Source of the DNA: Phlebopus portentosus
Lineage: Eukaryota; Basidiomycota; Agaricomycetes; Boletales; Boletinellaceae
DNA length: 64,000 nt
Assembly: GCA_037892935.1 (NCBI GenBank)
Contig: JAYXKI010000019.1
Span: forward strand, 558,001-622,000
Reading direction: 5' to 3'
The notes under the pieces were generated by a model, which searched no databases, had not been told where the DNA came from, and saw only the letters and a program-made list of their open reading frames with translations. Positions 2,639-59,865 of this stretch are shown here, in pieces. Positions within the stretch are counted from its first letter, which is position 1; each line of letters starts with the position of its first letter. Made by a program: the position numbers and the translations under genes.

Positions 2639-4244
2639 TGTTAGGACCAGCATTTTCGGACGAGGTGGTCAGTCCGAGCGTACCGGAACAAGTCCCTGCT
2701 TCCTCCTTCCGACAATGTATAATTGGAGAGTAGAGTAGCGAAGGTTAGATGTACTACTAAGAAGCGAGCTATAGGCTCAAGCTTGACCCAGCAGTAGAGC
2801 AGAGGTTCAATCAAAGGGGTACAGTTATGATTGAAAGTACAAAATAATTTTGCTGAGGGACAACACCCCGCTCAGCTGGCGCCTTAAATAAAGTTTCTAC
2901 TGAATACTACCGACTACCAAATACTACCGACCATGCCTCGCCATTGGTTAGGACAATGTGTTTCAGCTGGTGTCACTACTACTTTCTTGAGTCTGTAGTA
3001 CCACTGACAACTCTGGTGGTGCTACCGAAACTCCTAGTTGCACCACCAACTACTTCCTTCCCTATTAGGCAGGCCCGGATTTCCTTCCGTTCTGAAGAAG
3101 CTTTCCCCAGGCTTCTATCGATCTCCGTTCCTTTCACATGTTAATCCTTAACGCCAATCCTCCCACGAGAGATTTCTTCCATGTGCCGCAATCTCGCTTC
3201 GCCGGCGCTCCGTTACTCCGGCCGAGCTTCTGCCGTTTAATCTTCCATCATGGGGCTGACCGTTATCTCGGGATTTGGAATCGGTGACCCTTGCCGATCA
3301 TTGGAGATTAACCTCAGCGGCTGTGTAAATCTGGCAGATACTCTTCTGTGCCTTGCCGCAATATCGATGTCAGAGAATTGTAGTCCGGTACCCGTTGTTA
3401 ACCTGTATCTTCTTCCCAGGTGATTCGTCTCGCGCCATTCGTCGACTGTAATAACCCCTTCTTCCGATCGTTCCCATGCTTCTAGCATTCGATCCGTTGC
3501 TTCATCGATAAGACTCTCGACATCCAATGGTGCCGCATAGTATATCGGCCAATCAACTTCCACTGCAGTGTTTCGACACAAGGTCTGGTGATGATGCTGA
3601 TTGATCCAAGCTCTCACGCCAACCTTCAGTGCATAGATGTCTCTGTCGCCAAGCCATATCGACACCTCATGGTCATATGCGCTCATTCCGCGGTTCGGCA
3701 ATGGTTGGTCCAACGTTCGTTCCGAGGGTCCAGGTTTATGTCGAATCTTGACATCGGCTCCCTCCCGGGTTACTAAGCGCTCCACGAAGTTCTTGAGGAG
3801 CCACTCCGAAAGAACCCAACTCCTTTGGTATGCCAAATAGCAGTTTGTACAAACCAGGCTTTCGTGAACAAAGCGTCTGGTTGCACTATGTCGATATCGT
3901 CTCTTCTGCAGGAGTTCCACGTATCTTGCGATGTTCCATTCCTCCATCTGCACGTAGCTTCGCTCGGGTGGAGGAGTATGTCCAATGTGCATTCCAGCTA
4001 GTCCTTGCTGCAAAACATATGGATCCTCCCTCTCGTCACGTCTGTCTTTGTAATATCGTCGATCAGGTTCTTCTTGAATATAATCCACAGCGACCTCCCC
4101 AGGTCCTTGCTGTCTTAGTGGGCAAGAATCGCCTCCACCATTCTGTTCTTGAAGCCTTTCGAAATGCTCTTGATTAGGCTGCATAATTTGGTGTGTAAAG
4201 TGTCTGATTCCACGCCGCATTGTATATTCACAATTTTCGTAACA
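2639..4244 (-). repeat. 3' LTR of the chromovirus (1606 bp)
   Basis: Matches 13649-15254 over its whole length with about 19 differences by eye, all transitions, no indels. Ends are TGTTA...TAACA. Most of its length is U3 (about 1390 bp), occupied by a 327-codon ORF; the predicted R/U5 part is about 216 bp. Confidence 0.97.
3237..4220 (-). CDS. LTR-encoded protein (ORF C, 327 aa), 3' LTR copy
   Basis: A 327-aa ATG-started frame fills most of U3, beginning 24 nt inside the LTR. The protein is charged: a Gln/Gly-rich N-terminus, a central part with a CTNC motif (LVCTNCYLAYQ), then HEVSIWLGDRDIYALKVG and a Glu/Asp-rich region. I recognise no known domain. Both LTR copies keep it open, differing at about eight residues, while gag-pol of the same element has nine stops. 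A diverged homologue lies in the LTR of the second element at 50.65-51.5 kb. In the genomic RNA it would be the 3'-most ORF, after integrase, a position otherwise known from MMTV sag or nef-type accessory genes; no homology to those is claimed. Promoter and function are unknown. Confidence 0.7.
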   Translation of the reverse strand: MRRGIRHFTHQIMQPNQEHFERLQEQNGGGDSCPLRQQGPGEVAVDYIQEEPDRRYYKDRRDEREDPYVLQQGLAGMHIGHTPPPERSYVQMEEWNIARYVELLQKRRYRHSATRRFVHESLVCTNCYLAYQRSWVLSEWLLKNFVERLVTREGADVKIRHKPGPSERTLDQPLPNRGMSAYDHEVSIWLGDRDIYALKVGVRAWINQHHHQTLCRNTAVEVDWPIYYAAPLDVESLIDEATDRMLEAWERSEEGVITVDEWRETNHLGRRYRLTTGTGLQFSDIDIAARHRRVSARFTQPLRLISNDRQGSPIPNPEITVSPMMED

Positions 4245-4255
4245 TTCCTCCCCTT
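4245..4255 (-). promoter_or_regulatory. Polypurine tract of the chromovirus
   Basis: On the element strand AAGGGGAGGAA directly precedes the TGTTA start of the 3' LTR, the expected site and composition for plus-strand priming. Confidence 0.9.
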
Positions 4256-4680
4256 AAGATCCACTTCGGACTGCAAGGAGAGTGTGGATCCCTTAATTGT
4301 GGTAGCCAGAATCTTGCTGTTTCGCATTGATGCTTCCTAAGCATCGTCCTCTTGGTGTTCTAGTGACTTATTCCTCTTTTGCTGGAATAACTGTAGCACT
4401 GTACATCCAGAGTCCTTTTTGTTATTGATCATGTGACCTGACGCACAACCCCTCCGGCCAAAAGTGCGGCAGTCATGTGACCTACACACTTCCTGTTTTG
4501 GATGAGGGTGTGTCAAGCACGTGATTGACGCTCAATCTGTTCTCAGAGAAAGGCGGCAGTCACGTGACGCTTGCTCAATAATTCAAAGCCTCGCTGAGTG
4601 TCGGCTTCCAACATACTAGATGCTTCCCAACATGCTAGGAATAGTTTAATGACTTATTCAGGTCAAATAAGCAGGCCTTC
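4256..4680 (-). other. Noncoding 3' internal region of the chromovirus
   Basis: Between the integrase stop and the polypurine tract there are 425 bp without a coding frame. It holds an imperfect tandem repeat of about 88 bp (4430-4517 and 4518-4604) carrying four CAYGTGA motifs. Confidence 0.6.
4430..4568. promoter_or_regulatory. Four regularly spaced CAYGTGA (E-box-like) motifs
   Basis: CATGTGAC at 4430 and 4474, CACGTGAT at 4518 and CACGTGAC at 4561, spacings 44, 44 and 43 bp. Two are followed by similar TGACGC words and two are preceded by CGGCAGT, so they sit in a decayed tandem repeat. CACGTG is a classic bHLH site; regulatory use is inference. Confidence 0.45.
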
Positions 4681-6471
4681 CTAAGCCTCGCTGCACTCAC
4701 TATCCGAGGAGTCAGCCCAAAACCAATCCTTGTATGAAGGATCCCCTTTCTCTTCTGGCAGATCCCATCTGCGAACCGGCAGCGCTTTGTTTCGAGTGAA
4801 TGGCCTTTTCGCTGCTCTCCAATGACGCTTGTGCCATTCCGGATAACCGAAATCTCGCTGCTTGATACCTGTCTTGTTTAGGTATCTTCTTCTTTTGACT
4901 ACCCTCTGAGCTACGGACTCTCCTAGTGCCGTCCTCAGGAACTCGTCATCTTCTTTCTTGATGTCGATTACTCTCTGGGTAGAGTCTATAATATCCGCGA
5001 TCTTCTTTCTAGAGGGAAGATCTATCGTGTCCGGCCAACGATTCCTCTCGTGATACTCCCGCAATTTCTCTGGGGCATTGCGCAGCCCTTCCACAGGTTC
5101 CCAAGTATTTTCTTCCTCTGGGTAGCCGAGCCATTTAACCTGATACTCCCATTTTCCATGCCGTTTCCTCATGTCCCGGATCGCTTCAACCTCGTATTCG
5201 GTTTCTCCAGCGATAACTTCTGGTGGTGGTCTTGTTCTCTGTGCCGGATCTTTCCTTTCTCGGTAGGGAATCAATAGTCCTGCATAGAATACCAGGTGGA
5301 TCCTCAACTCCTTCGGGAGATCCAACTCGTAGTTGACTAGCCCATGCTTTGCGATAATTTGATAAGGTCCCAGGTTTCTATCCCCTAACTTCCTCGTGGG
5401 AACTAGTAAGGTTAGATTCCGACCATCTAGCATAACTTTATCGCCAATTTCGAATGACGGCATCGGGCCTCGGTGTCTATCTGCAAATCTTTTCATTGCA
5501 TCTCGTGCCTTCTCCAGCGCCTTTGTTGCTTCTTCTTGATTCTTCTTTCGCATAGCCACATAGTCCTGTGTTCCTCGGATCGGAAGCTTGAATCCTAATT
5601 CCGGTTGAAATCCATACACCAATTCAAACGGTGTTTTGCCTGTACTAGAGTGAGAGCGACTATTATAGGCGAATTCTGCCATAGGTAGATGTTCGTCCCA
5701 ATTGTCTTGCTGCAAGCTGGAATAGCAACGTAGCAGCTGTTCCATTTCTTGATTTACTCGCTCTGTTTGACCATCTGTTTGTGGATGATATGCCGTACTA
5801 AGCTTCGTTTCAATTCCGAGGGCCTGGTTCACCTGTTCTGTAAACCGGCTAGTGAATTGCGGTCCCCTGTCGCTGATTACTGTCTTCGGAGTTCCGACCT
5901 TGCTGTAGACATAATTGATCATCAGGTCCGCAGTGGTCTTCGAGTCTGCATTTACTGTAGTAGGTATAAAAGTTCCCATTTTAGAGAACCTGTCTACCAC
6001 CACTAGTATCGCATTGTTTCCTTTGCTCGTCATTGGAAGTCCGGTGACATAGTCCATAGTAATCTCGTTGTAGGGCCTTGTCGCTATCTGTAATGGCTGC
6101 AGCGGTGGTTGCATCTTTCCTCGTCGTGCTTTCGTCCTCTGGCACACGTCGTATGTGCGCACATATTCTTCGACCCATTCCCTCATCTTCGGCCACCAAA
6201 CTCTTCTTTCCAGTTTGTCTATAGTCTTCTGTAACCCCGGGTGTCCTGACGCTAGTGCATCATGGCACTGTCGTACAATTTCCTTCTTAACTTCTTCATC
6301 TGGTGGGATAACCAATTTATCATCCTTCCACCAATATCCTTCTTCGAACATTCCGATTGCTGGCTCTTTGGATCGTTCATAGGCGTCTCGAATCTTCTCT
6401 CCCAGTTCAGGACCCCCTGTAAGCTCAAATACCCGTACCGTGCGCATGGGCAGGTCCGATGTTCTGAACAA
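4681..6471 (-). CDS. Integrase with chromodomain (C-terminal Pol)
   Basis: This is the longest intact stretch of pol (596 codons). The zinc-binding region has H70, H77 and C110, but the first cysteine of the usual CxxC pair is tyrosine (TYDVC, Y107), which fits a G-to-A change. The catalytic triad is complete: D140 (TMDYVTG), D201 (SDRGPQ) and E237 (TDGQTERVN), spaced D-35-E. A chromodomain at about 425-475 has the aromatic cage residues (EYEVEAI, VKWLGY, ENTWEP), defining the element as a chromovirus; in this family the domain directs integration to methylated histone tails. A basic/acidic tail of about 120 residues follows. The ATG is internal to Pol; the natural protein is released from the polyprotein. 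Confidence 0.93.
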   Translation of the reverse strand: MFRTSDLPMRTVRVFELTGGPELGEKIRDAYERSKEPAIGMFEEGYWWKDDKLVIPPDEEVKKEIVRQCHDALASGHPGLQKTIDKLERRVWWPKMREWVEEYVRTYDVCQRTKARRGKMQPPLQPLQIATRPYNEITMDYVTGLPMTSKGNNAILVVVDRFSKMGTFIPTTVNADSKTTADLMINYVYSKVGTPKTVISDRGPQFTSRFTEQVNQALGIETKLSTAYHPQTDGQTERVNQEMEQLLRCYSSLQQDNWDEHLPMAEFAYNSRSHSSTGKTPFELVYGFQPELGFKLPIRGTQDYVAMRKKNQEEATKALEKARDAMKRFADRHRGPMPSFEIGDKVMLDGRNLTLLVPTRKLGDRNLGPYQIIAKHGLVNYELDLPKELRIHLVFYAGLLIPYRERKDPAQRTRPPPEVIAGETEYEVEAIRDMRKRHGKWEYQVKWLGYPEEENTWEPVEGLRNAPEKLREYHERNRWPDTIDLPSRKKIADIIDSTQRVIDIKKEDDEFLRTALGESVAQRVVKRRRYLNKTGIKQRDFGYPEWHKRHWRAAKRPFTRNKALPVRRWDLPEEKGDPSYKDWFWADSSDSECSEA

Positions 6472-8658: not shown

Positions 8659-10002
8659 TCATGTGGTGAAGCTTACCGACTGCTTCTGCACTGCCAGGGT
8701 TGAGTCATTTTGGCCCTCGTGCACGGATGGAGGAGTCCACTCCACCCTAATACTCCTTATGACAGGGTTCGAATCAGTACCACTTCCTCCACTCTTCTGT
8801 CGACGCATCTTGAGAGGATCCGGTGCATAGTGTCCAGGCTTTCCTCCTTTAGGTGGTACACTAGGCTTCTTCCTTCTACTCGTATCTGATCCTTCTGCAT
8901 CGATTGTCATTTGTGCTTGTATTTCTTTCTGCACTCTTGCTTGGGCTTCAGATGTTGTGGGTGAGGTCGTTGTTCCCAGGTCTTTCTGAATTGCCATCAG
9001 CTGAAGACGCGCCGTATACATGCCGCCATATTCATCTAGGAGTTCATCATGTTTGGCCCCCTTGTCCATTTCTCTGACCATGGTGCGGTATACTGCACCA
9101 TCCGCTTCCTCGAGACTATTGAAGTTGTGCCAGTTTTGCTCGTCTTTTGTTATTTGGCACTTGTCCCCGAACCAAAAGAACCTCCATCTCCCTTCTTGCT
9201 TGGCAAAGGAGAGTTCTGGCGGCTTGTGCATGACTTCCTCAAACGTGACAAGCGGCGCTGCTGATTCCTTTTCTTTTCCTTTTTCTGATGGTATGATTGT
9301 AAGTTCTTCCTTCTCGGTTTCTTGTCCTGTTTCGTCATCGCTGTGGTAGTAAATCCTAGTTTCCCAAGCTTCCTCCTTCTCGTCATCTGCATCCCATTTG
9401 GGTGGTATGTAGTCTGGAATTCTTCGCCATCTTCTGCGCTTTCGGGGCTTCCTTGGGGCTAGGATTAGCTGGATGGAACGCAATCGCACTGTTCCATTGA
9501 GAGCAATTTCCTTCCCGCCTTTGCGAAGAATCCCTTTTGTCCAGTCGATGGTTGGCCTATGCTGTTCAAGCCAATCATTTCCTATGAGAAACTTGTCTTC
9601 GTGTGTATCCACCACTGCGATGTCCATTAAACCTCTTGTAATCCCTGTGTCCACTATTGCTCTGACGTTCCGAGTCCATCCACCATGATTAATCGATCCA
9701 TCGGCATTCCAGATGGTATAATTACCTTCTGCAGGCACTGTTTTCAGCCCAAGGCTCTGTACAACCGTGGGGCTAATAGTAGTGATCGCAGATCCGGAGT
9801 CAATCATAGCTGAGAGATTAACCTTTTTCTGTCCCTGAATGATGTCAATGGGTATAGTAGGATGGTTGGAATCTGGTCTAGCAATAGTCCATTGGCGCTT
9901 TATCTCTTGTGTGTCCTTCGAGCCTTCGCTAGTGTCTGATGTCAACTGGCGGCCCTTCAAAAATCCTCCTCGGAATCCTCCTCGAGGGCATGCAAAGCCC
10001 AT
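8659..10002 (-). CDS. Aspartic protease and spacer of the chromovirus Pol
   Basis: The protease active site is AMIDSGSA at residues 65-72 (D68-S69-G70), followed by a flap region and the second conserved block (DKFLIGNDWLEQ), typical of retropepsins of Ty3 elements. After about residue 170 comes a long, highly charged spacer toward RT. The frame starts inside the end of gag and is -1 relative to it, so expression probably needs a -1 frameshift; I see no perfect slippery heptamer in the overlap. It ends at a TGA (8659-8661) that sits where pol should continue, so the natural Pol is longer. Confidence 0.85.
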   Translation of the reverse strand: MGFACPRGGFRGGFLKGRQLTSDTSEGSKDTQEIKRQWTIARPDSNHPTIPIDIIQGQKKVNLSAMIDSGSAITTISPTVVQSLGLKTVPAEGNYTIWNADGSINHGGWTRNVRAIVDTGITRGLMDIAVVDTHEDKFLIGNDWLEQHRPTIDWTKGILRKGGKEIALNGTVRLRSIQLILAPRKPRKRRRWRRIPDYIPPKWDADDEKEEAWETRIYYHSDDETGQETEKEELTIIPSEKGKEKESAAPLVTFEEVMHKPPELSFAKQEGRWRFFWFGDKCQITKDEQNWHNFNSLEEADGAVYRTMVREMDKGAKHDELLDEYGGMYTARLQLMAIQKDLGTTTSPTTSEAQARVQKEIQAQMTIDAEGSDTSRRKKPSVPPKGGKPGHYAPDPLKMRRQKSGGSGTDSNPVIRSIRVEWTPPSVHEGQNDSTLAVQKQSVSFTT

Positions 10003-10979
10003 TCCTTACGCCTTGGTAACTTCGTTCTCTTGTCCAGTAGTTCTTCCATTTCAGAATTGCTGCTAATCCCAACTTCCCGGCGTTTTAGGAAGCGGCCAGT
10101 CTTGCCAGATCGTCTCTTCTGCACCCGTCTCTTGTAGTTGGTTCGGTGTCCACGGCTTCCCTGTGTGTCTCGCCCTACGTTGTTGCAGTCCCGTGCAAAG
10201 TGACCTGTTTTGCCGCATGCCCAGCATATCCCGGCATCTCCTCAGGACCCCCTAGTAAAGCGCCTAGACATGTCGATGTCCATAGGCTCACCTAGAAACT
10301 CAGCTGGACGGCGAGCTTCTGGGGGCACTGGCGTGTACGATACCGCCTGCCCATCTTTAAACATAGGGGTGTACTTCCTATTGCTGCCTATCACCTTGGC
10401 AGCCATCAGACTGGCCTCCAGATTACTAGCGTTCTCCTTCCATTGGTTCAGGTCCCATTCAGGGTGGTCTGTATTCATAAGCAGGGCCTTTAGGATCGTT
10501 TGGTTGAGTCCTCTCTTGTACTCATAAATTAGTGCCTGATGGTCGTAGTGTTTCGGCAGCCTCATCCTAATGTCGTCAAAGGCCCTGTTATACTGCTTCA
10601 CCCGCACCCGTTCCTGATAAATCGTCCTAATATTTCGCTCAGCTTCTTCTTGAAGTCCAAAAATGCCATTGTGGTTGAGCGCTAATTCGTTCCATAGATC
10701 GTCCTCGTCGTCCCATCCACCCTTCTTGTCCATAACAAGCTTGCCATCCGCATCTCGCTTGTAGGTGGAGACTAATTGATTTCTATTCACGGCCCATTTG
10801 CCATTAACCCAAGTCTGAGCTTGACCTCGCAGACATTCCAAAATAATCTTAACCCTCTTGACTGGGTCGCTCGGATGTTTTTCATTCAACCGGCTGATCA
10901 TTTGATTCTGGAAGTTCTCAAGCGACTCATAAGGGTTTCCCTTAAACAAGGGATACTTCATGATATCTTTGTTTGACAT
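9957..10979 (-). pseudogene. Gag with CCHC zinc knuckle, one internal TGA
   Basis: Starts at ATG 10979 (MSNKDIMKYPLFKGNPYE). The N-terminal 200 residues have the helical capsid pattern of Ty3-type Gag (retrotrans_gag region with W/YxxxF and LPKHYDHQALIYEY). A TGA at 10242-10244 replaces a sense codon just before the zinc knuckle CWACGKTGHFARDC (10185-10226). A basic tail and acidic end (EEDSEEDF) follow. About 340 residues if read through. It overlaps the protease frame by about 45 nt. Confidence 0.9.
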
Positions 10980-11175: not shown

Positions 11176-13083
11176 CTATCTCCTTTCTTCCTGAGCTTCA
11201 TATTGTTCCTCGCCGCTTTCGTGTTCCTCGCTTTCCTCTTCTGTCTCCCAGTCGTCGTTCGCATCGAAGTACTCTTGATCCTCGCTGGTTGGCTCTTCTA
11301 CGTCGTTACCTCGCACCCAAACTACCCTCGCCATGTTCGCTACCCCCTGCCTCGGTGGTCCCTCTTGTATGTCGAGAGAGTCCGATGGTATAGGGCAGCT
11401 GTTAGGACGCATGATAGGATCATAGATATAATCAGAGTCTGGGGAGTACTCACTGACCGCCTGGAGCCTTGCTTCTCTCTCCTCAAGCTCAAGAGCACTT
11501 GGAGTAGGCGATCCTGGCGGCGAGTCCTGGTGCGGGTACTGGAGGTGGTTCCTTTCGACGTAGTGATTGTTCCATCCCAGCCGTTGGATTGCTCCCTCGA
11601 CGAGCTCTCCTTGCTCGTTCCACATGAGCTCCCAGATTCCCGTGCCATAACCCGTTTCTGCCGTGTTGTCCGCCTCCCATGCTTCCCCAGCATCGGGAGG
11701 CGGTCCCCATCCGTTGTTGGATGGCCAGGGCTGTGGCGACTCAGGAATTACCTCCCTCAGCAGTTCTTCTGCTTGCTGGTCTAGGCTTCCGGGTTGCGTT
11801 TCTGTGGAGATGTAGTCCGGGAGATCTTCTTCAACTTCGATGCTTCCTTCGACTTCCTGTTCCTCTTGGGCGAGCGCAGTAGGCGCTACCAGCCCTCTTT
11901 CCGCAACTACCTCAGCGACGTAGCTCCTTCCAACTTCTACTGCCTGCTGTTGCAACTGCGACGACGGTTGTCCTGTTTGAGTGTCTGTTCCTCCTGGTTC
12001 CCTGCTCTGGCGAATGATCTCGACCATCTGATCCACAAAGCGTTCACTTGCTGGGATCAGGCCGGGCATCTGGTCGTCGTCGGAGTCTGAGCTCACGCTT
12101 TCGAAGCGGCTAGCTAGACCTAGGCCTCTACCTTGCAGCGGGGAGTCAGGGCTCAACCTTGCCCTTCCTCGCCTAGCTCGCTGCGTCAGGTAGGATTGAC
12201 GAAGCCTAATTGTTTGTTGGATCCGACGAATGCCTTCCGTGATCGAGTACTGGGCCACGAGTTCTTCCTCAGCATTGCTGATCCGGGCTCGAATAGCCTC
12301 GACCTGTTCGACCAGGTAGCTAGCCTGCGTGTGTAACTGCAGGAAGTCTGTACCAGTCAGCCGAATAATCTCTTGCTGGGAGTTGACCACTTGTTGAGCA
12401 AGGGCTGATTGACTGCCCTGAATGGCCATTGTTACCGCTCCCAGAATACGAGCCTGAAGAATACCGAACGCGTAGTTGATTCGCACGTCCCGCTGTTCGC
12501 CTTCTCGCCTGAGATTGGTGATGACTGCCTCGGCAATCACATCTCCGACGTGTCCCTGAATATGAGCCAGAAACTCCCCCAGTGTCTGCCCTTCTACGGT
12601 AAGGTTCTCGGAGTATTGAGAGCCCATGTCGTAGAGTCGAGCGACAGTAGCTGTGAGAGTTCTGAGGGACCGATCAATGCTAGTAAGTCGATTGTCGAGG
12701 TCGATGATGGTGTGTCGCAGGGCGGAGACAACTTGGTTGGGTTGCCCGTCAGTACTGACCATTCGGTCCAAGCGTCCGTGTAGACTGTCGAGTCGTTCGC
12801 TGATGCGTGCCAGAGCGGATTCCATACGTTCTCCAGGTCTGGGTTGAGGAACTGCCAGTCGTTGAGTTTGGAGTAGAAATCTCCGACCGGCACGACGGAA
12901 TGGGGAACCTCTTTCGTTGTCTTGCCATTCCATCCACGTCCATAGCGTTCCAAAGCCTCGAAGAAGGCTGATTTGACCTCGGAGTTGTTGAGCAATGACG
13001 TATACCATGGAAGAAACCCAGACGATGCAGAGTGTAAGCCAGAGACTAGACCAACCAACTTGCCACAGTTCCATCGGTGACAT
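11176..13083 (-). CDS. ORF B: 635-aa membrane-anchored coiled-coil protein upstream of gag
   Basis: An intact 635-codon frame starts at ATG 13083, the first AUG downstream of the predicted transcription start. A hydrophobic segment of about 20 residues at positions 12-32 (WSSLWLTLCIVWVSSMVYVI) suggests a membrane anchor or signal anchor. Heptad-like helices follow at about 80-130 and 150-310 (MESALARISERLDSLHGRLD), then a Ser/Asp-rich stretch and a very acidic C-terminus. No known domain is recognised. The second element has the same arrangement at 55538-56490. Standard chromoviruses have nothing between leader and gag, so this is an accessory gene. An envelope-like or capsid-associated role can be imagined, but there is no fusion peptide, furin site or cysteine pattern to support env. 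Confidence 0.75.
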   Translation of the reverse strand: MSPMELWQVGWSSLWLTLCIVWVSSMVYVIAQQLRGQISLLRGFGTLWTWMEWQDNERGSPFRRAGRRFLLQTQRLAVPQPRPGERMESALARISERLDSLHGRLDRMVSTDGQPNQVVSALRHTIIDLDNRLTSIDRSLRTLTATVARLYDMGSQYSENLTVEGQTLGEFLAHIQGHVGDVIAEAVITNLRREGEQRDVRINYAFGILQARILGAVTMAIQGSQSALAQQVVNSQQEIIRLTGTDFLQLHTQASYLVEQVEAIRARISNAEEELVAQYSITEGIRRIQQTIRLRQSYLTQRARRGRARLSPDSPLQGRGLGLASRFESVSSDSDDDQMPGLIPASERFVDQMVEIIRQSREPGGTDTQTGQPSSQLQQQAVEVGRSYVAEVVAERGLVAPTALAQEEQEVEGSIEVEEDLPDYISTETQPGSLDQQAEELLREVIPESPQPWPSNNGWGPPPDAGEAWEADNTAETGYGTGIWELMWNEQGELVEGAIQRLGWNNHYVERNHLQYPHQDSPPGSPTPSALELEEREARLQAVSEYSPDSDYIYDPIMRPNSCPIPSDSLDIQEGPPRQGVANMARVVWVRGNDVEEPTSEDQEYFDANDDWETEEESEEHESGEEQYEAQEERR

Positions 13084-13520
13084 AGTTGTTTCGCAGTAGT
13101 GTAGTTGCCTTGATAGACTTGTAAAAGGACTTGATGGAGGAAATGAGAATGTTCGAGTAGGGTGTATTCGAATGCTTTATATTCCTGACACAGAGCGAGT
13201 AGTTCTTCTTCAACCAGTGTCGGACCTCTGAGTGCCTCCCAATTGAAACTGTGTCCGTTCAATAGGTTGTCCGCGTGTACAAGCAAGAACTTCCTTCTAA
13301 CTCTTTCGTGTCTTTCGGCGGTGATTCGAAGCTCCAGGGCGGATAGTATAACCGACCGGTAGGGTTCTAGGATAGGGGTGTTTGAGTGCTTCTTACCTCG
13401 ATAGAAGTTTATCGTGCGAAACACCGAATTGACTTCTTCTTCGAATGTATGGAGCGCTCTAACAAAACTCCGATGGAGTGTGTAAGCCTGCTTTAGCTGT
13501 CGATGATACGCTTATCGGTG
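12594..13520 (-). other. ORF A: long open frame without an ATG, overlapping ORF B
   Basis: A frame stays open from just after a TAA near 13520 to a stop at 12594 (about 308 codons) and overlaps the first 490 nt of ORF B in another frame. It has no methionine before the overlap, so translation would need a non-AUG start or splicing. Its part before the ORF B start resembles a frame at the same place in the second element: YKAFEYTLLEHSHFLHQVL here, YRYVIYGTFQHKNCLYQAL there (55285-55500). That could mean a real protein or only conserved leader DNA. In the second element the frame ends where ORF B begins, so the overlapping part here may be fortuitous. Confidence 0.4.
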
Positions 13521-13635: not shown

Positions 13636-13646
13636 AGCAAAATTAT
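13636..13646 (-). promoter_or_regulatory. Putative self-priming primer-binding site
   Basis: Two nt inside the 5' LTR the element strand reads ATAATTTTGCT. This is the exact complement of AGCAAAATTAT at 13864-13854 in the LTR, the predicted 5' end of the transcript. It does not start with TGG as a tRNA-primed site would. Confidence 0.65.
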
Positions 13647-13853
13647 AATGTTAGGACCAGCGTTTTCGGACGAGGTGGTCAGTCCGAGCGTACCGGAACA
13701 AGTCCCTGCTTCCTCCTTCCGACAATGTATAATTGGAGAGTAGAGTAGCGAAGGTTAGATGTACTACTAAGAAGCGAGCTATAGGCTCAAGCTTGACCCA
13801 GCAGTAGAGCAGAGGTTCAATCAAAGGGGTACAGTTATGATTGAAAGTACAAA

Positions 13854-13902
13854 ATAATTTTGCTGAGGGACAACACCCCGCTCAGCTGGCGCCTTAAATA
13901 AA
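13854..13902 (-). promoter_or_regulatory. Predicted LTR promoter: TATA-like box and start site
   Basis: On the element strand TTTATTTAA (13902-13894) lies 30-38 nt upstream of AGCAAAATTAT (13864-13854), the sequence complementary to the primer-binding position. This places the start of R near 13864 and leaves R+U5 of about 216 nt. The same signals are at 2844-2892 in the other LTR. Confidence 0.55.
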
Positions 13903-14246
13903 GTTTCTACTGAATACTACCGACTACCAAATACTACCGACCATGCCTCGCCATTGGTTAGGACAATGTGTTTCAGCTGGTGTCACTACTACTTTCTTGA
14001 GTCTGTAGTACCACTGACAACTCTGGTGGTGCTACCGAAACTCCTGGTTGCACCACCAACTACTTCCTTCCCTATTAGGCAGGCCCAGATTTCCTTCCGT
14101 TCCGAAGAAGCTTTCCCCAGGCTTCTATCGATCTCCGTTCCTTTCACATGTTAATCCTTAACGCCAATCCTCCCACGAGAGATTTCTTCTATGTGCCGCA
14201 ATCTCGCTTCGCCGGTGCTCCGTTACTCCGGCCGAGCTTCTGCCGT

Positions 14247-15230
14247 TTAATCTTCCATCATGGGGCTGACCGTTATCTCGGGATTTGGAATCGGCGACCC
14301 TTGCCGATCATCGGAGATTAACCTCGGCGGCTGTGTAAATCTGGCAGATACTCTTCTGTGCCTTGCCGCAATATCGATGTCAGAGAATTGTAGTCCGGTA
14401 CCCGTTGTTAACCTGTATCTTCTTCCCAGGTGATTCGTCTCGCGCCATTCGTCGACTGTAATAACCCCTTCTTCTGATCGTTCCCATGCTTCTAGCATTC
14501 GATCCGTTGCTTCGTCGATAAGACTCTCGACATCCAATGGTGCCGCATAGTATATCGGCCAATCAACTTCCACTGCAGTGTTTCGACACAAGGTCTGGTG
14601 ATGATGCTGATTGATCCAAGCTCTCACGCCAACCTTCAGTGCATAGATGTCTCTGTCGCCAAGCCATATCGACACCTCATGGTCATATGCGCTCATTCCG
14701 CAGTTCGGCAATGGTTGGTCCAACGTTCGTTCCGAGGGTCCAGGTTTATGCCGAATCTTGACATCGGCTCCCTCCCGGGTTACTAAGCGCTCCACGAAGT
14801 TCTTGAGGAGCCACTCCGAAAGAACCCAACTCCTTTGGTATGCCAAATAGCAGTTTGTACAAACCAGGCTTTCGTGAACAAAGCGTCTGGTTGCACTATG
14901 TCGATATCGTCTCTTCTGCAGGAGTTCCACGTATCTTGCGATGTTCCATTCCTCCATCTGCACGTAGCTTCGCTCGGGTGGAGGAGTATGTCCAATGTGC
15001 ATTCTAGCTAGTCCTTGCTGCAAAACATATGGATCCTCCCTCTCGTCACGTCTGTCTTTGTAATATCGTCGATTGGGTTCTTCTTGAATATAATCCACAG
15101 CGACCTCCCCAGGTCCTTGCTGTCTTAGTGGGCGAGAATCGCCTCCACCATTCTGTTCTTGAAGCCTTTCGAAATGCTCTTGATTAGGCTGCATAATTCG
15201 GTGTGTAAAGTGTCTGATTCCACGCCACAT
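14247..15230 (-). CDS. LTR-encoded protein (ORF C, 327 aa), 5' LTR copy
   Basis: Same ORF as at 3237-4220, with about eight amino-acid differences (for example second residue W for R, NCGMSAY for NRGMSAY), all explainable by single transitions. It lies upstream of the predicted start of the element RNA, so this copy is transcribed only from its own or an outside promoter. The frame stays open a further 30 nt into the flank, where an additional ATG (15260) occurs by chance. Confidence 0.7.
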   Translation of the reverse strand: MWRGIRHFTHRIMQPNQEHFERLQEQNGGGDSRPLRQQGPGEVAVDYIQEEPNRRYYKDRRDEREDPYVLQQGLARMHIGHTPPPERSYVQMEEWNIARYVELLQKRRYRHSATRRFVHESLVCTNCYLAYQRSWVLSEWLLKNFVERLVTREGADVKIRHKPGPSERTLDQPLPNCGMSAYDHEVSIWLGDRDIYALKVGVRAWINQHHHQTLCRNTAVEVDWPIYYAAPLDVESLIDEATDRMLEAWERSEEGVITVDEWRETNHLGRRYRLTTGTGLQFSDIDIAARHRRVSARFTQPPRLISDDRQGSPIPNPEITVSPMMED

Positions 15231-15257
15231 TGTATATTCACAATTTTCGTAACAGAT

Positions 15258-16229: not shown

Positions 16230-16819
16230 TTAAATTCAGTACTATGGGATGAGTCCGAACCCGTGCCGTTTACTTTCGAAGTCTACTTCCTGCGGGATCA
16301 TCTGAGGCTGTGTGCTAAATGTGGATGGCCATGCTTGTATTTGTTGGCGGCCTGTCGACTAGTTTGAATCTAGGCCTAGGATCGAGGCCCAGAAGCGCGT
16401 GCACCAATTCCTTTGAGTAGTAAGTGCTCTCTCTTTCTCTGAACCTGTGTCCGAACCAGAGTCAGGTTTTGCAGCTGTCGGTATTTCATGCCAAAACGAG
16501 CTTTCAAGATTGATCTCATGATATTAGCGTCGTCCAGGACACGTGGAGGTGATCTCAGTGAGTGATAAGCACCGGACGAAGATTAATTGTACTGTGATCT
16601 GTCGGGCAGGGTTCTTCGGGATATGTGGCTTATATATTAGGATTCTTGGCCTCAGCGGTACCGTTTTCACCAGTTTAAACACCACACGACTCTCGATGGC
16701 CTTCGCCGTATTTGCTTTTCTGTGCTCTAGAAAGGCACCACATGAAATGCCACCAGGATCCCGAGATCTTAGATGTATGCCACAATTGGAGGGTGGCATA
16801 TACTACTGCCTTGAAATCG

Positions 16820-16827
16820 TATAAATA
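16820..16827 (+). promoter_or_regulatory. TATA box, cassette unit 1
   Basis: TATAAATA in the context CTTGAAATCGTATAAATACG, upstream of the small gene; conserved exactly at 19697 in unit 2. Confidence 0.6.
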
Positions 16828-16977
16828 CGAGGCGAACAATGATGTATTCTGTACGAACTCACGCGTGTTCGTTTCACTCTCTTCCTCTCCTCACTAACAT
16901 TTGACTTCTACGAGATGACGACGCAAGTAGAATTGCTTACAGTCGAATTACGTCGTAATTCACAGTATTATTTGCAG

Positions 16978-17560
16978 ATATACCCTTCCCAACAGGGACA
17001 CAATTTTCCTTAACTACAGTCTGACTACCAAACCCAATGTCTTCTCCATGCCCGTCGACTACGTGGCCGTGGTGGGAACTCCCGTCGGAAGTGTCTACCT
17101 CTTCCGTTTTTCCCTCGTTCAAGAAGCGACGGAAGAGTCCGTCCGCATCGATATGGTACCGCGAGGGCGGGACGACATGATTGGAGTAGCGAAGGTAGAA
17201 TATAACCCCTACATATTCTCCTGGACATATGGACCCCAGCCATTTAAGACACGAGTGCGTGAAGGAACGACAGTGGCCACGATATTGAGAATCATCTTCG
17301 ATGAAAACAGGATGGATCAGTACACGTAGGCACAATCTGTCGGACCCTTCAGCGTGTTTCGCTGATGGCGCATTTCTAGCTTCGTCGGTTCAGGTCAGGG
17401 CTGTCGGCACTGGTGCGCGTGTGTCCTCGACAAGCTGGCCGAAAACAATCTTGTCCACCACAGTGTGCCTCGGATGTTCATTGACAATGAGGCGGAAGAG
17501 CATGCAAGATTCGGAATCTCGTACCCCATGCCGCGCATTAGGGGTACCTTTTACCAGTAA
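16978..17560 (+). pseudogene. DUF7770-like small protein gene, cassette copy 1, splice donor lost
   Basis: The open frame 16979-17326 reads YTLPNRDTIF, then a central block (MPVDYVAVVGTPVGSVYLF; VRIDM; GTTVATIL), and matches copy 2 closely. The last exon (17399-17560) has CRHWCACVLDKLAEN and ends MPRIRGTFYQ-stop. Between them copy 2 has donor CAA|GTATAA; here the sequence is ACGTAGGC, giving an in-frame TAG and a wrong phase, so this copy probably makes a truncated protein. From memory the layout (Arg-Leu-Asp-Met-type block, then G-C-R-x-W-C) recalls the fungal family DUF7770; I cannot verify that. The first exon is unresolved (ATGACSACGCAAGTAG near 16914 is a candidate start). Confidence 0.5.
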
Positions 17561-17724
17561 TTTCTTGACGAACCAGATGTGGATAAAGTCACAGCTTTCG
17601 TTTGTATCACATTGTGTACAACTCTGTAAATGAGTTGAATATCAGACAAGAATGTTCTAACCCTCGGATATCTCCCCGTGTCCTGCGGCGTCCATTATTC
17701 GGTTTCCATCTGCTCGAAAATAAA

Positions 17725-18809
17725 TCAGTATACGGCCGAAGTCTGAATGATGATACTCACTCGATTGATCCAATCAGCACCTAAGACAACAAGGGTGTAG
17801 GGTATAACCTTCATAAACGGCAATTGACCTGGCTTCTCACAAGAGCCTGCTATAAACGGTATTGACGACGTCCAAGAGGATGGTATGTCCGGTCGATGTT
17901 CTGGGAAGAGTTTCATGCTCGCAGCCTCGAACCAGGATGGATACCATCCTGCGTCATTCCAATCAACGATCCACAGTTGACCGTCATCGCCCAGAATCAA
18001 ATTCCGTGGATGGAGATCCATATGTGTGAACACGAGGGGGACACTATCATCGAACGGACCACTGTCCAAGCCCACCTTCCACTGTCGCTGCATAAAGAGA
18101 AGTTGTTTTTGGTACCATTTCGACATTTCTTGGTATGAATGGAACGGTCCAGATTGTCCATCTTCGGTGAACAGTCTACCAGTACACTTTTGCGGAGTAC
18201 CGTCATCCGAGGGGGGTCCAGGGAAGGGTGGTGGGCCCGCGCGAGAGGAAATCGACCGTAGTTCACGGATGTAGAAGCGAAGAGTAACGAGAACCCGTAG
18301 GCGCATCCACCAGCTCAGTTGGGACCAGACATCTAATAAGACACGGCCGGGTATATACTGCTGGACCACATAAGCTTCGTGACGATAACGAAAGACTCGT
18401 TCATACATCGGAACTGGCACGGATGTATGACGGCGAACGAGTTCCGCTGAGAGAAGCTCATGGAATCCTGATGTAAACGAGTATTTTACCACAACGTCTG
18501 AAGCTATTTTCGCAACGCGGCCGCGATTGGGTGAGCCAAGCTCCGGGATGATCCATGTCCCTTCATCGACTTTGGGAGACGAACTATACAGCTCCCTTAT
18601 TTCTTCATTGGTCAGCGCTGATGTGCTCAAGATCACTTGCTGCTGTACGTACGAATGTTAGATTACTTGGCCTCGACATAAGGACCCGGAAGACGTACCC
18701 GAGGAGCTCTGAATTTGCAGAGCAGTATTGGGGCGATGAGGCGATACAGAAGATCTTCAACAGATTCAGTGAGCGACCTCATGAGATCGTGACCTAGAGT
18801 CGCAGACAT
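17725..18809 (-). CDS. Aminoglycoside-phosphotransferase-like kinase, cassette copy 1
   Basis: Two exons: 18699-18809 (ATG, MSATLGHDLM) and 17725-18642, with an intron starting GTACGT and ending ACAG, giving 342 aa. The kinase-like fold of the APH family (PF01636 type) shows in an N-lobe with VAKIASDVVVKY, a hinge VVQQYIPG, the catalytic loop THMDLHPRNLIL (H-x-D-x4-N) and the metal-binding IVDWNDAGWYP. Such fungal proteins are presumed small-molecule or protein phosphotransferases; the substrate is unknown. It converges with the small gene upstream, 165 bp apart. No lesion seen. Confidence 0.88.
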
Positions 18810-19084
18810 GCTCGGCAAGAGGGAGACATGAACTTGATGATCATCAAGTTCTCAAGAAGGTTGCAGTTGCACTGGCGACTGTACGAGCACGCGATCAGCT
18901 GATTACGCAATCAGATGATTCCAGTTCCTATCTTGCCTTGGTCTTCGGTTCGTGTGCGACCCTTCTGAGCAGAGTTCGGTACTATAAATTTACAGTCACT
19001 AATTGTTAGCCGAAATATTATAGACGTAGACGACCCGTATGGACGCTTCTGGATTTAACGTAAGGAAATAAGAACCATGCCACT
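18810..19084. other. Divergent upstream region between cassette units 1 and 2
   Basis: About 275 bp with no coding frame; upstream of the copy 1 kinase and of unit 2. Confidence 0.4.
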
Positions 19085-19696
19085 TAAATTCAGTATGGGT
19101 TTCGTCAGATCAGTCCGAACCCGTGCCGTTTACTTTCAAAGTCTACTTCTTGCGGGATCATCTGAGGCTGTGTGCTGAATGTGGCTGGCCATGCTTGTAT
19201 TTGTTGTGGCCCGTCGGACTAGATTAAAACTAGGCCTAGGATCGAGGCCCAGAAGCGCGTACACCAATTCCCTTGAGTAGTAAGTGCTCTTTCTCTCTGA
19301 ACCTGTGTTCGAATCAGAGTCAGTTTTTGCAGCTGTCAGTATTTCAGGCCAAAACGAGCTTTCAAGATTGATCTCATGATATTAGCGTCGTCCAGGACAC
19401 ATGGAGGCGATCTCAGTGAGCGATAGGAGCTGATAAGCGCCGGACGAAGATTAATTGTCCTGTGGGCTGTCAGGGTAGGCGGCGTAGGCCTCTTCGGGAT
19501 ATCTGACTTGTATATGTTAGGGTTCTTGGCCGCAGTGAAACCTTTTCTTCAGTTTACACACCAGGCGACTCTCGATGGCCTTCACCGTATTTGCTTTTCT
19601 GTGCTCTAGAAAGGCACCGCATGAAAATGCCACCAGGGTCCCGAGATCTTAGATATATGCCACAATTGGGCGGTGGCATTGTCTACCTTGAAATCG

Positions 19697-19704
19697 TATA
19701 AATA
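19697..19704 (+). promoter_or_regulatory. TATA box, cassette unit 2
   Basis: TATAAATA after CTTGAAATCG, the same as in unit 1, about 95 bp upstream of ATGACCACGCAAGTAG. Confidence 0.6.
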
Positions 19705-19853
19705 CGAGGTGGACAACGATGTATTCCGTACCAACCCACTCATCTTCTTTCCCTTACTTCTTCAGCTCACCGACGATTGACCTCTACCAGATGACCACGC
19801 AAGTAGATCCATTCCCAACCGGACTACGTCGTAATTGACAGCCTTATTCGCAG

Positions 19854-20436
19854 GTATACCCTTCCCGACAGGCCCACAATTTTGCCTGACTACAGTCTGA
19901 CTGGCAAACCTGATGTCTTCTCCATGCCCGTCAACTACGTCGCCGTCGTGGGAACTCCCGTCGGAAGTTTCTACCACTTCCGTTTGTCCCTCGTCTCAGG
20001 TGCGACGAAAGAATCGGTTCGCATCGACATGAAGCCGGGGCCCAGGGACCTGATAGGCATAGCGAAGGTAGAATACAGGAGCTATGATTTCTCCTGGAAA
20101 TGGGGGCCCGAACCAATCATCGCACTAGTGACTCAAGGGACGACAGTGGCCACGATCTTGGGAATCATCTTCAGTGACGAAAACAAGATGGACCAGTACA
20201 CGCAAGTATAATCAATCGGTCCCTTTAGCGTGTTTTGCTGATGGCGCATTTTTAGCTTCATCGGTCCCGGCCAGGGCTGTCGGCACTGGTGCGCATGTGT
20301 CCTCGACAAGCTGGCTGAAAACAGGCTTGTCCACCACAGCGTGCCCTGGACTTTCACTCAAGCTGAGGCAGAAGAGCATAATAGATTCGGATCCTCGTAC
20401 CCCATGCCGCGTATTAGGGGGACCTTTTACCAGTAA
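19854..20436 (+). CDS. DUF7770-like small protein gene, cassette copy 2
   Basis: Exons 19854(or earlier)-20205 and 20275-20436 joined by a 69-nt intron (GTATAATC...CCAG) in phase 0. The product reads YTLPDRPTIL, MPVNYVAVVGTPVGS, VRIDMKPG, GTTVATILGIIF, then QGCRHWCACVLDKLAEN and a C-terminal MPRIRGTFYQ. Acceptor CGCAG precedes 19854; the first coding exon is unresolved because splicing the obvious ATG (19791, MTTQ) to this acceptor gives the wrong frame. About 170 aa are visible. Function unknown; DUF7770-like by memory only. It is the intact version of the copy 1 gene. Confidence 0.55.
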
Positions 20437-20602
20437 TTTCTTCTATGAACCGGATGACAATGTAATGGAAAATCTCCTATGTATTGTTTTGAATACGACT
20501 CCATAAACGAGTTGAATGTCTGATAAGTATATTCTGACCGTCGAATATCTCCACTTCCTGCGAAGTCCATTACTCCGCATCGATCTTGAAAAAAAAAAAG
20601 AA

Positions 20603-21683
20603 TCAGAATGCAGCCAAACTCAGAATGTTGACACCTACTAAATCAATGCTATCGGCGCCTAAAACAACTAGTGTGTAGGAAATAGCATTCATGAACGGTA
20701 GCTGACCTGGCCTATCACAGCAGCCTGACACGAATGGTATCCATGACGTCCAAGAAGATGGTATGTCCCGACGGTGCTCTGTGAAGAGTGTCATACTTGC
20801 ACCCTCAAACCAGGATGGATACCATCCTGCGTCAGTCCAATCAACTATCCACAGTTGCCCATCGTCGCCCAGAATCATATTCCGCGGATGCAGATCCATA
20901 TGTGTGAACACGAGGGGGACACTATCATCGAATGATGCACTATCCAAGCCCTCCTTCCAGCGTCGCTGCATAAAAAGAAGCTGTTTTTGGTACCATCTCG
21001 ACATTTCTCGGTATGATTGGAACGGCCCGGAATACCTATCTTCGGTGAACAGTCTACCAGTACACTTTTGCGGAGTACCATCATCCGACGGTGGACCGGG
21101 GAAGGGGGGAGGGCCCGCACGAGAGGAAATCGACCGTAGTTCACGAATGTAAAAGCGAAGAGTAACGAAAACCCGTAGGCGCATCCACCAGCCCAGCTGG
21201 GACCAGACATCTAACAAGACACGTCCGGGTATATACTGCTGGATCACATAAACTTCGTGCCGAAAACGAAAGACCCGTTCATGCATCGGAACTGGTACGA
21301 ATGTATAGCGTCGAACGAGTTCTGCTGAAAGACGCTCATAGTTTCCCGTTGTAAGGGAGCGCTTTACAACAACATCAGAAGCTATTTTCGCAACATGGCC
21401 AAGATTGGTCGAACGACACTCCGGAATGTAAAATGATCCTTCATCGACTCTGGGAGACGAGCTATACAGCTCCCTTATTTCTTCATCTGTCAGCGTTGAT
21501 GTGCTCAAGACCACTTCTTGCTGTATGAATGTCAGTCTACTCGAAGTAGACATAAGGACCTAGAGGACTTACACGAGGAGCTCTGCATTTGCAGAGCAGT
21601 ACTGGGGTGATGAGCCGATACAGAAGATTTTCAAGAGCTTCTGGGAGCCACCGCATAACATTCCAACCTAGAGCTGCAGACAT
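20603..21683 (-). CDS. Aminoglycoside-phosphotransferase-like kinase, cassette copy 2
   Basis: Exons 21573-21683 (MSAALGWNVM) and 20603-21520, exactly the exon lengths of copy 1 (111 and 918 nt), 342 aa. The key residues are kept: THMDLHPRNMIL and IVDWTDAGWYP. The start is taken at the ATG matching copy 1; another in-frame ATG lies 39 nt upstream. Similarity to copy 1 is high over the kinase core and falls in the last 15 residues. Intact. Confidence 0.88.
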
Positions 21684-21722
21684 GTTCGGCACGAGGGAGA
21701 CAAGACTTAACTTTCTGGTCAT

Positions 21723-31383: not shown

Positions 31384-31760
31384 AACAGCGGTACGGAATT
31401 GTCTGACGAAACAGCAGAGTAGTCGAGGAGGGATGAGTGACGGTCCTTTACATGAGAGCAGCGGGAGCATTGCTTATAAGTATTCAATCGCCTGCCTCAT
31501 TTCAACCCGAGGCCAAGGTGAGAATGTATGACCAATCTTGAGATGACCATGATAGCTAATATGGATAAGCGCCCGTTAGAGTTCAGGGGTAGTGAAGGTT
31601 AGCAAAGAATAGACCAGAATCACCTCAAAGCGCCGCCGTTATTACATCTATGTGACTAGGTTCAGACCTAGATGCCCTTCCGTCATGGCCTCATGTTCCA
31701 AAGACGCCTATGGTCTGTCCGTATAGAGCTTTTGGCCTGCTTCTGGACCCCTACACTGAG
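31384..31760. other. Argonaute upstream region
   Basis: No separate gene seen; contains the presumed Argonaute promoter. No clear TATA box. Confidence 0.35.
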
Positions 31761-50647: not shown

Positions 50648-51557
50648 TGTTATAAAAATTGTGGATACCCAATACAGCATGGGATCAGACATCTTACTCA
50701 CTGAATTATGCAGCCTAATCAAGAGTATTTCAAAAGGCTCTGGAGACAAGATAGTGAAGATGATTCTTGCCTACTAATTGTTAGAAATTGCTTTAGTCAG
50801 TAGTATAGCATGCACGTGACAGCATATAATCAAGATGTTCACATGGCAAGCGAGAATGCTCGAAACTACATTAAAGAGAATAGTTAACCAAGGACGAGCT
50901 AGTCAGTGGCCAGAAGTAAAGAATGACTGTGAGAAATGCAAACAAGCACAACAGATAGGATGGGACATTTATTGTACAATAATCTTATCACTCTTGATGA
51001 CAGAGGTATTAGCAATGAACTTCGACATACAAGGGATACATAGAGTATTTCCAATATATGTTACTCAAGAAGGCATACAACAGCCTAATACAAATTATAT
51101 GACATTTAAACATATGGTAGCAGTATTCTCACATGACGAACAAGACTATCTAATAAATGCAGGAGTACAGATTAAATTCCCAAAGCAGAAACACAAAGAA
51201 GAATGTCAATTTAATATGATAACTAGAGTTAAAGAATTCATTAGACTCATTGATGCAGAAGAAGTATCAGTCATAGACGAACGAGTCATAGAGATATCAA
51301 TAGAATATAGGATCAAGTTTATAATTGGTCCAATTAAGATTCTGATGCCACTGGAAGAAGGGTTCACAAGAATAACGACATATCTCTACAAGAGAAGCTT
51401 TCTGGTAGATGATAAAATACCAGTGGGAAAAACCTCAGGACTTCCAGAAGAAGATGTAGTACCCCACAGGCACCAAACCTCAGAAGCCATAAAGATTGAT
51501 GATCACTGATAAGAAAAGTTAATCTAATCAGGAAGGTGATAAGAAAGGAAAGCGATA
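50648..51557 (+). pseudogene. ORF C homologue in the second element LTR
   Basis: Early codons follow ORF C (GIRHLTH, stop, then MQPNQEYFKRL against MQPNQEHFERL), then frameshift. Frame 50835-51509 continues as a long open stretch: the CEKC motif lines up with CTNC, HMVAVFSHDEQDYLINAGVQ with HEVSIWLGDRDIYALKVGVR, and an acidic helix region follows. Despite heavy mutation, 225 codons are still open. It shows that the LTR ORF is an old trait of this family. Confidence 0.7.
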
Positions 51558-57460: not shown

Positions 57461-59024
57461 AGGTCCAGAGTTACACTAGTTTTGATCCTTTTGCCTAAGC
57501 AGCAGTATGTTGTGCAGAGGTGATCTATCTACCCACGTTTAGCTATACTATGTGATCTCCTTACTATCCTTCCTAGTCGCAGTTCTGGTTAGGGATGCTT
57601 TCAGAGACAAGGTAGAATAAGAGCAGATTGGGATTTTCAAGAGGCATAGTAGTACAAAGCACACAGTAGATAGTGAGTTAAGACACTGTTGCCATGTGTT
57701 AAGAGGATTGAAAGATGGGGGAAAGAGGGACTACTTCTAATGCTATTTATGCTTTCTAGATAATCTATTTTTCATCTTATTTCTTACTCATCTCCTCTCC
57801 ACTTTACTCTACCTTGCTCCACTTCTCTCCACTATTACATCACTTTCTTCATCATTCTGCTCCACTGAGTGCCACTTTGCTCTAACATGTCTCCACTATG
57901 ACAGAATTCTATGGGGTTGCTGACTAAGACAATAGAGGTGCTGTTCCAATATGAAAAGCTCCACTGTCAGTGCTCCATTATGATGTCAATTCCATCACCA
58001 GGTGGGATTGTAGCTCTTGGTGTAATGTAAGCAGCTTGATATGTGACTCTTCACTGTTCATCTTGTGGTCCGAAGTGTGTAAGCACAACTTGCACATTGG
58101 TATTGAGATATCGGGTTGGTGTAGAGTATGGTCCAATACATACCATGAACTGTATGAGTTTAGCTGGGGGATGCAGTTGTGTTCGAGTGACTAGCCATGC
58201 TTTGCCTAGAAGTCAAATGTTGTGAATGTATTGCCATATCCTTCATTGGAGTACCAGTTATAGTTATTTGGTGTCTAGGTTCACGTTCCTTAGTTAATAA
58301 AGGTTCACTTGTACTGTAGAAGCTAGACATGAATTATGCAGCTCTGGCTTATACCATCCTAGTATCCTCCAAGTTATCAGGTCTGCAGCTCGAGGGGTTT
58401 GAGTTGTAACAATGAGTTTCTCATATCGCTTGGGTATTATAGGATTTGGTGGATTGGCATGTAACGCTTCTTGTATGTGACATTGGACTTCGATCTGGTA
58501 GTCACACATTTTACTTGTAGCATAACATACTGTGAAGTATATCTCATAAAGGACCATGTATATTTGAGCACAAGTCTGACAGTGCTGGAATGCCAGTGAT
58601 GTCTCTATTCGGCTTGGATTAGCCTTTAGACTTTAGTCATTAGATATTAGGCTTTGGATGTCGTGTTCTAGACTTTTCAGGCTTCTAGTGGTTTGATCAC
58701 TTCTTGACTTCTTTTGATCAGGTCAGATCGGGAGTTTAGTTGGCAGTGTTAAGGTGATGGTCAGTGGTAATAATTCAGCAGTGGTAACTACTGGTCGGCG
58801 GTGTTAAGTAGTCTGCAGGGTTACGTACTTGTAGTATACTTCTTAGGCACTCATATATTGCCATTGATGCCTGTGACTGTTGCCTTGGTCGTCTGAACAG
58901 TAGTTTGGCTCTGGTGACTGCTAGCCTGTTACTAGTCATATTTGGAATGCTGATCCTGTTGATCTGCTGATTGTGTTGCTCTTGATGCTAGTTTTTGAGC
59001 AGATCCTTTCAGGTTCTAGTTGTA
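57461..59024. other. 1.6-kb AT-rich stretch, unclassified
   Basis: No gene supported. A minus frame 58294-58557 (87 codons; YEIYFTVCYATSKMCDYQIE, EALHANPPNPIIP, AADLITWRILGWYKPEL) has protein-like composition and could be the remnant of a transposon or host gene I do not recognise. A pyrimidine-rich block lies at 57750-57900. Confidence 0.35.
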
Positions 59025-59575: not shown

Positions 59576-59722
59576 TCTTATCTATAGCTTCATATTGAGG
59601 TGTCTTTATATCATTGACTTCGATCTCGAGATGCATTGTAAGGATGTGGAGGAGATGGTCGAAATGTCCTGTGGGACTTCTGGATGGAGAGCTCCGAAAG
59701 TCATTCTCAAGAATGATAAGCA

Positions 59723-59847: not shown

Positions 59848-59865
59848 ATGAAGCCGATGCACACG

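Follow-up and report, generated by a model that had tools for sequence, protein, structure and literature searches.

Can the long terminal repeat (LTR) of a fungal retrotransposon carry a gene of its own? The question is raised by a degraded Ty3/gypsy chromovirus in the window, by which we mean the whole 64,000-nucleotide stretch of DNA that was analysed. Its two LTRs are 1606 bp long and 98.8% identical, with 19 mismatches and no gaps by self-BLAST. The earlier note had described a 984-nt open reading frame (ORF) that is open in both, and this is confirmed on the minus strand: 327 codons run from ATG to TAA at 3237-4220 within the 3′ LTR (LTR nt 25-1008), and the copy in the 5′ LTR at 14247-15230 is open as well. 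Reading the plus strand from 3237 meets 8 stops in frame. The two copies differ at 13 nucleotides, 8 of them nonsynonymous (N) and 5 synonymous (S), and a second in-frame ATG at codon 13 corresponds to the start of the S. sanghuang P0001 and S. vaninii P0002 protein records. When the letters of the ORF were shuffled 2000 times, the longest stop-free run in six frames had a median of 99 and a maximum of 244 codons, compared with 327 in the real sequence. The parts of the element are as follows.

2639..4244, minus strand: 3′ LTR of family 1, 1606 bp, TGTTAC...CTAACA (self-BLAST; sequence)
13649..15254, minus strand: 5′ LTR of the family-1 element (self-BLAST)
3237..4220, minus strand: U3 ORF, 327 aa, in the 3′ LTR (ORF list; codon-phased variation; omega)
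14247..15230, minus strand: U3 ORF, 5′ LTR copy (open frame)
4245..4255, minus strand: polypurine tract adjoining the 3′ LTR (sequence)
13636..13646, minus strand: primer-binding site, 2 nt inside the 5′ LTR end (complementarity to the self-primer)
2884..2890, minus strand: TATA-like TATTTAA at LTR nt 1355, 3′ LTR copy (sequence)
2844..2854 (5′ LTR: 13854-13864), minus strand: putative 11-nt self-primer at LTR nt 1391, the inferred RNA 5′ end and U3/R border (exact complement of the primer-binding site)
4245..4680, minus strand: 436-nt gap between the pol stop and the 3′ LTR, hypothetical promoter region (motif count)
4681..6471, minus strand: integrase (H2C2, rve) and chromodomain ORF (Pfam)
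8659..10002, minus strand: piece containing the aspartic protease (Pfam)
10242..10979, minus strand: gag piece (Pfam)
11176..13083, minus strand: extra ORF in the interval between 5′ LTR and gag, second part (70 genome matches, many full-length and open)
12594..13424, minus strand: extra ORF in the same interval, first part, 276-codon frame (third-position excess in frame)

Pfam finds a chromodomain (Chromo, 2.2e-15) and an integrase core (rve, 1.5e-12) within 4681-6471, and likewise in a second family of elements described below, placing both among the chromoviruses. In the window copy gag-pol is split into separate ORFs; the integrase region in many other copies in the genome lies in an open frame of 1778 codons. 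There is no target-site duplication at the window element (flanks ...TGATC and GCTCC...). Among three other LTR pairs, two have a 5-bp duplication (CTAGT; GCTCC), and the third, with LTRs 12.6 kb apart and one of them truncated, has none and is probably no true pair. Elsewhere in the window, ORFs at 28402-31470 (minus strand) look to us like an Argonaute gene in exons. A gene that looks kinase/phosphotransferase-like is duplicated in tandem at 16248-21708 (82% over 2.6 kb), and a third relative lies at ~24 kb. At 59011-63424 there are direct and inverted repeats nested in one another, from several hundred to ~1350 bp long and about 84-99% alike. The extra region of the element itself (11176-13424, minus strand) consists of the 276-codon frame at 12594-13424 overlapping a 635-codon ORF. 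Since the third-position signal follows the 276-codon frame not only where it stands alone (21 of 28 sites) but also in the overlap (13 of 19), the extra gene between the 5′ LTR and gag is probably built of two exons or read through a frameshift. Extra ORFs upstream of gag are known from rice Retrosat2 (PMC3485330).

The position of the U3 ORF relative to the start of the element's RNA can be read from its priming signals. Two nucleotides past the 5′ LTR lies an 11-nt stretch that is the exact complement of AGCAAAATTAT at LTR nt 1391, a site 36 nt after the TATTTAA in family 1. Shuffling the 40 nt that follow the family-1 LTR 500 times gave an 11-nt complement 3 times and a longer one never. 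The second family has a different self-primer 11-mer at LTR nt 1333, with a TATA box at 1298, and the spacing of the putative self-primer would be 35-36 nt after the TATA box in both. In the Tf1-type self-priming layout the RNA start is set at the self-primer base (PMC10085805), and judged from sequence, the RNA 5′ end would be complementary to the primer-binding site in both families, as in Tf1/sushi elements. The ORF lies downstream of the polypurine tract and upstream of the TATA-like box and self-primer (in family 2 at LTR nt 57-794 plus the stop). Because these signals put the RNA start after the ORF, the ORFs of both families lie wholly in U3, and family 1 has the order of a U3 protein gene of the mouse mammary tumour virus (MMTV) sag type, with the ORF at 25-1008, the TATA-like box at 1355 and the RNA start at 1391. 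This place, after the polypurine tract and inside the LTR, is not the internal 3′ region that holds the accessory genes of Grande, Retand and other ORF3-type elements.

The ORF is also abundant. With the 327-aa protein as query, the genome to which the window belongs (38.4 Mb, 23 contigs) yielded 240 candidates, and among the 122 matches listed, 77 have no in-frame stop and 59 fall into 30 same-strand pairs 10.9-11.3 kb apart, the others being single or otherwise placed. Seven further matches outside this list were fetched, and all seven lie in family-1-like LTR sequence. Protein databases hold one S. sanghuang cluster (P0001, 26 member sequences) at 92% to the U3 protein, two S. vaninii proteins at 62-63%, and one 206-aa ENA protein that is a relative of the family-2 protein (50%). 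Judged from these matches, the host would be a Sanghuangporus. Some of the "hypothetical proteins" annotated in such genomes, the members of P0001 included, are retroelement proteins.

A diverged relative with a homologue at the same place in its LTR had also been proposed, and the window does contain one, in truncated form.

50778..51556, plus strand: truncated family-2 LTR with a 224-aa ORF at 50835-51509 (sequence comparison)

This 224-codon ORF is without a piece that is found in 246-aa copies elsewhere; family 2 occupies 29 places in the genome, with 6 pairs. Its integrase is 49% identical to that of family 1, and its U3 homologue, at the same place in U3, is ~23% identical. Homology between the LTR proteins of these diverged elements is borne out by profile comparison (hhalign E 7.5e-4) and by P0004, a relative of family 2, whose best match to family 1 is a decayed, family-1-like copy (5.8e-9), with further copies of that family matching from 5.5e-7 down. 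A homologue is accordingly present in a second family with related pol, and S. vaninii has one at 63%. In the interval between pol and the 3′ LTR, two family-2 loci (L039 and L052) carry a conserved basic/acidic ORF of ~108 codons and a short hydrophobic ORF.

Further chromovirus families were sought by grouping integrase matches by hand, with 92 of 611 candidates scored. Within this scored set, a family-3 integrase is about 48% and a family-4 integrase about 42% identical to that of family 2. In family 3, a 213-aa ORF containing C-x2-C and H-x2-C lies close to the 3′ end of the element. This ORF sits in a repeat of at least 1.48 kb common to both ends of one element, starts at nt 397 of the repeat and is followed by a TATA-like site at 1266. 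At least 6 same-strand pairs about 10.8 kb apart occur among 150 matches. No self-primer was found in the 3′ copy examined, which ends at the border of the fetched stretch. The window has one decayed representative.

57537..59011, minus strand: family-3 LTR with a decayed ORF at 57970-58608 (88% to L089; stops)

Compared with families 1 and 2, the family-3 protein gives an hhalign E of 0.1 with its H and C residues in register and 14-19% identity, values that are not significant by themselves and no more than suggestive of homology. Between pol and the 3′ LTR, family-3 elements have a 397-codon ORF (L089:293-1483), near-identical in L091, and accessory genes seem plentiful in this lineage. Family 4 was examined at one locus, where the interval from the end of pol to the gag frame contains no stop-to-stop frame of at least 90 codons (the longest has 89). 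The U3 gene thus seems to be confined to some of the genome's chromoviruses.

Variation among copies shows how the ORF has been maintained. The family-1 sample was the 50 best-scoring of the 122 listed copies, and is biased towards conserved proteins, while family 2 was represented by all 29 listed places; after one and two copies, respectively, were dropped as incomplete, 49 and 27 full LTRs were aligned, giving 43 and 26 haplotypes. Expected N:S ratios were derived from the spectrum of mutations in the LTR outside the ORF. In family 1, the variants common to at least 3 of the 43 haplotypes are distributed 10/8/58 over the three codon positions (by-sites chi2 for codon phase, p 4e-14), with 21 N and 55 S against an expected N:S of 2.2. 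Doubletons stand at 24N:48S and singletons at 38N:33S with 1 stop (expected 2.32). Shared variants of family 2 number 17N:40S with 4 stops (expected 2.39), and those common to at least 5 haplotypes 5N:23S (expected 2.27); its doubletons are 22N:17S with 4 stops (expected 2.55) and its singletons 43N:31S with 8 stops (expected 2.76). The downstream non-coding LTR has no codon phase in either family (p 0.23 and 0.35), and the pol end of the same elements gives 8/5/56 among variants common to at least 2.

The earlier note had named dN/dS across families as the test of function, and the ratio is far below 1 in both. Pooled pairwise NG86 estimates are 0.110 for family 1 (872 pairs) and 0.156 for family 2 (317 pairs). 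Maximum-likelihood (ML) omega, estimated with stops masked, is 0.116 and 0.176 without transition bias and 0.163 and 0.256 with kappa, in haplotypes of which 42 of 43 and 10 of 26, respectively, are stop-free. Setting omega to 1 lowers lnL from -3413.4 to -3546.0 in family 1 (a drop of about 133) and from -2531.5 to -2597.6 in family 2 (about 66), each at the best of four kappas, with the family-1 likelihood still climbing slightly at the largest. The U3 ORF, wholly within U3, is a genuine gene of the retrotransposon that codes for a protein, and purifying selection has preserved it in no fewer than two diverged families of chromoviruses. That it has a function in the life cycle of the element, as had been suggested, is well supported by the low dN/dS and by the family-2 homologue at the same place in the LTR, leaving aside which function this is.

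A gene that serves the element would be expected to decay in its copies once they are inserted. The six LTR pairs of family 2 behave in this way, with differences of 36N:25S plus 9 stops against 17:40 among shared variants (Fisher p 0.0017). The 13 LTR pairs of family 1, four of them identical, differ by 25N:50S, a constraint no weaker than that among shared variants (p 0.48); three of the 13, with 27-49 differing sites each, may be mixtures or have undergone conversion. The pairs give partial support to selection acting in the element and not in the host, the relaxation after insertion being clean only in family 2.

The protein has a conserved layout, in which C-x2-C is followed first by a predicted helix of some length, then by a part rich in strands that includes H-x3-C, and finally by a further helix. 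In the window protein the C/C/H/C set is C124-x2-C127 ... H211-x3-C215, and these residues are kept in all 43 family-1 haplotypes and in 26, 24, 23 and 26 of the 26 family-2 haplotypes. In comparison with S. vaninii P0002, conservation is poor over the N-terminal 90 residues, which also contain indels, and residues 121-150 are identical at 29 of 30; the N-terminus is variable and probably disordered, and the core, to guess from the spacing, is possibly zinc-binding. A Gag-type CCHC knuckle (C-x2-C-x4-H-x4-C) is ruled out, as C127 and H211 are 84 residues apart and H-x3-C follows. The Pfam scan assigned the protein to no family, and no retroviral family, sag included, appears among the matches of this profile scan at E up to 1. 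Confidence in the structure models is low (pLDDT 40.5 and 54.7), and they gave no usable library match.

How might such a gene be expressed? When a retroelement replicates, both LTRs receive the U3 that stands at the 3′ end of the RNA; each insertion therefore duplicates the gene and each solo LTR keeps it. The start codon is preceded by about 24-60 nt of LTR, almost nothing, and for this reason a promoter inside the LTR is unlikely and the expressible copy of an intact element would be that in the 3′ LTR only. Its message may be the 3′ part of the genomic RNA or a subgenomic RNA from the 436-nt gap between pol and the LTR. Four TCAC(G/A)TG motifs occur in this gap, and none in that form in the LTR. 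The gap is highly variable (55 informative sites in 440) and, as it varies freely, an internal promoter there is a lead only. The product would be a small accessory protein that promotes expression of the element or counters host silencing.

We consider it probable that the U3 ORF is a selected gene for an element-encoded, possibly zinc-binding accessory protein that aids expression or counter-silencing. Preference for such a regulatory role is inferred from the accessory genes of other retroelements (CERV, sag) and from the RNAi set of a related host, S. vaninii, which has two Dicers, four Argonautes and four RdRPs (PMC9769868). A non-coding frame left open by recent ancestry would be in keeping with the youth of many copies, such as the four identical family-1 pairs, but it is refuted by the frame-specific third-position excess, by omega well below 1 and by homology across families. 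That the ORF is a captured host gene or a passenger without a role for the element is very improbable: few homologues are known, namely the Sanghuangporus records and one ENA contig, which counts in its favour, yet omega is low in both families although their proteins are only ~23% identical, and the seven off-list matches fetched include no host paralogue.

More weight, if still little, can be given to the proposal that the protein restricts its own family, with solo-LTR copies raising the dosage as copies accumulate. The gene is indeed kept in every intact LTR, with 59 of the 122 listed matches in 30 pairs; against this, family-2 copies decay after insertion as if unselected in the host (family 1 showed no such decay), and the ORF starts so close to the end of the LTR that a solo LTR has no room for a promoter ahead of it. 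Unlikely, though less so, is a structural or integration-complex component in place of a regulator, that is, a particle protein or a Gag or integrase cofactor such as an RNA chaperone or targeting factor. The conserved C-x2-C ... H-x3-C and charged N-terminus would suit nucleic-acid binding, and the U3 ORF is constrained much as pol is, but the zinc-knuckle spacing of Gag is absent and there is no likeness to any Pfam retroelement domain. The expression or counter-silencing protein remains our preferred reading. Its most extended form is tentative: a self-priming chromovirus lineage of Hymenochaetaceae, comprising three families, may have independently moved a fast-evolving zinc-binding accessory gene wholly into U3, where it would encode a trans-activator or an RNA-silencing suppressor. 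If so, the gene would be copied twice per integration and archived in solo LTRs, and the retroviral strategy of a U3 gene would have been reinvented in a fungal LTR retrotransposon.

Several known systems share features with this gene. Tf1/sushi chromoviruses have self-priming beside the LTR and a chromovirus pol, whereas the account of them in PMC10085805 mentions no LTR ORF and the LTRs described here are 1.5-1.6 kb long with a gene. CERV of C. elegans Cer1 is likewise a separate LTR-retrotransposon accessory protein, made from its own spliced mRNA and exporting genomic RNA, although the abstract gives no LTR location (PMC10309623). In plant Grande, according to a title cited in PMC11963269, a nuclear accessory protein is encoded 3′ of pol under a promoter of its own; this gene lies in the internal 3′ region and not in the LTR. 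Some fungal chromoviruses have a dUTPase or an "add. ORF" without assigned function, for which the account in PMC2864245 states no LTR location, and in PMC3248453, on LTR retrotransposons in fungi, ORFs were found mentioned only in general terms. The earlier note had held an LTR ORF to be new for fungal chromoviruses, and no precedent was found in the open-licence literature, with subscription papers mostly outside its scope. The closest parallel is MMTV sag, a protein gene largely in the U3 of LTRs that are "ordinarily non-coding", for which several promoters are listed, among them one within env and another in the 3′ U3 (PMC4667437). MMTV is a mammalian retrovirus, and the action of a superantigen would be meaningless in a fungus; the gene described here lies wholly in U3, in a chromovirus, and by Pfam scans has no sequence similarity to sag. 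It is like sag in layout and is not a detectable homologue of it. Coding LTRs are known from MMTV, and a U3 gene under selection in a lineage of fungal retrotransposons is new as far as the open-licence literature goes. It sits in a high-copy chromovirus, is kept across families whose integrases are only ~49% identical, and, in a lineage equipped with an RNAi set, provides an accessory gene that can be tested. LTRs, treated as regulatory DNA, can carry coding capacity outside retroviruses.
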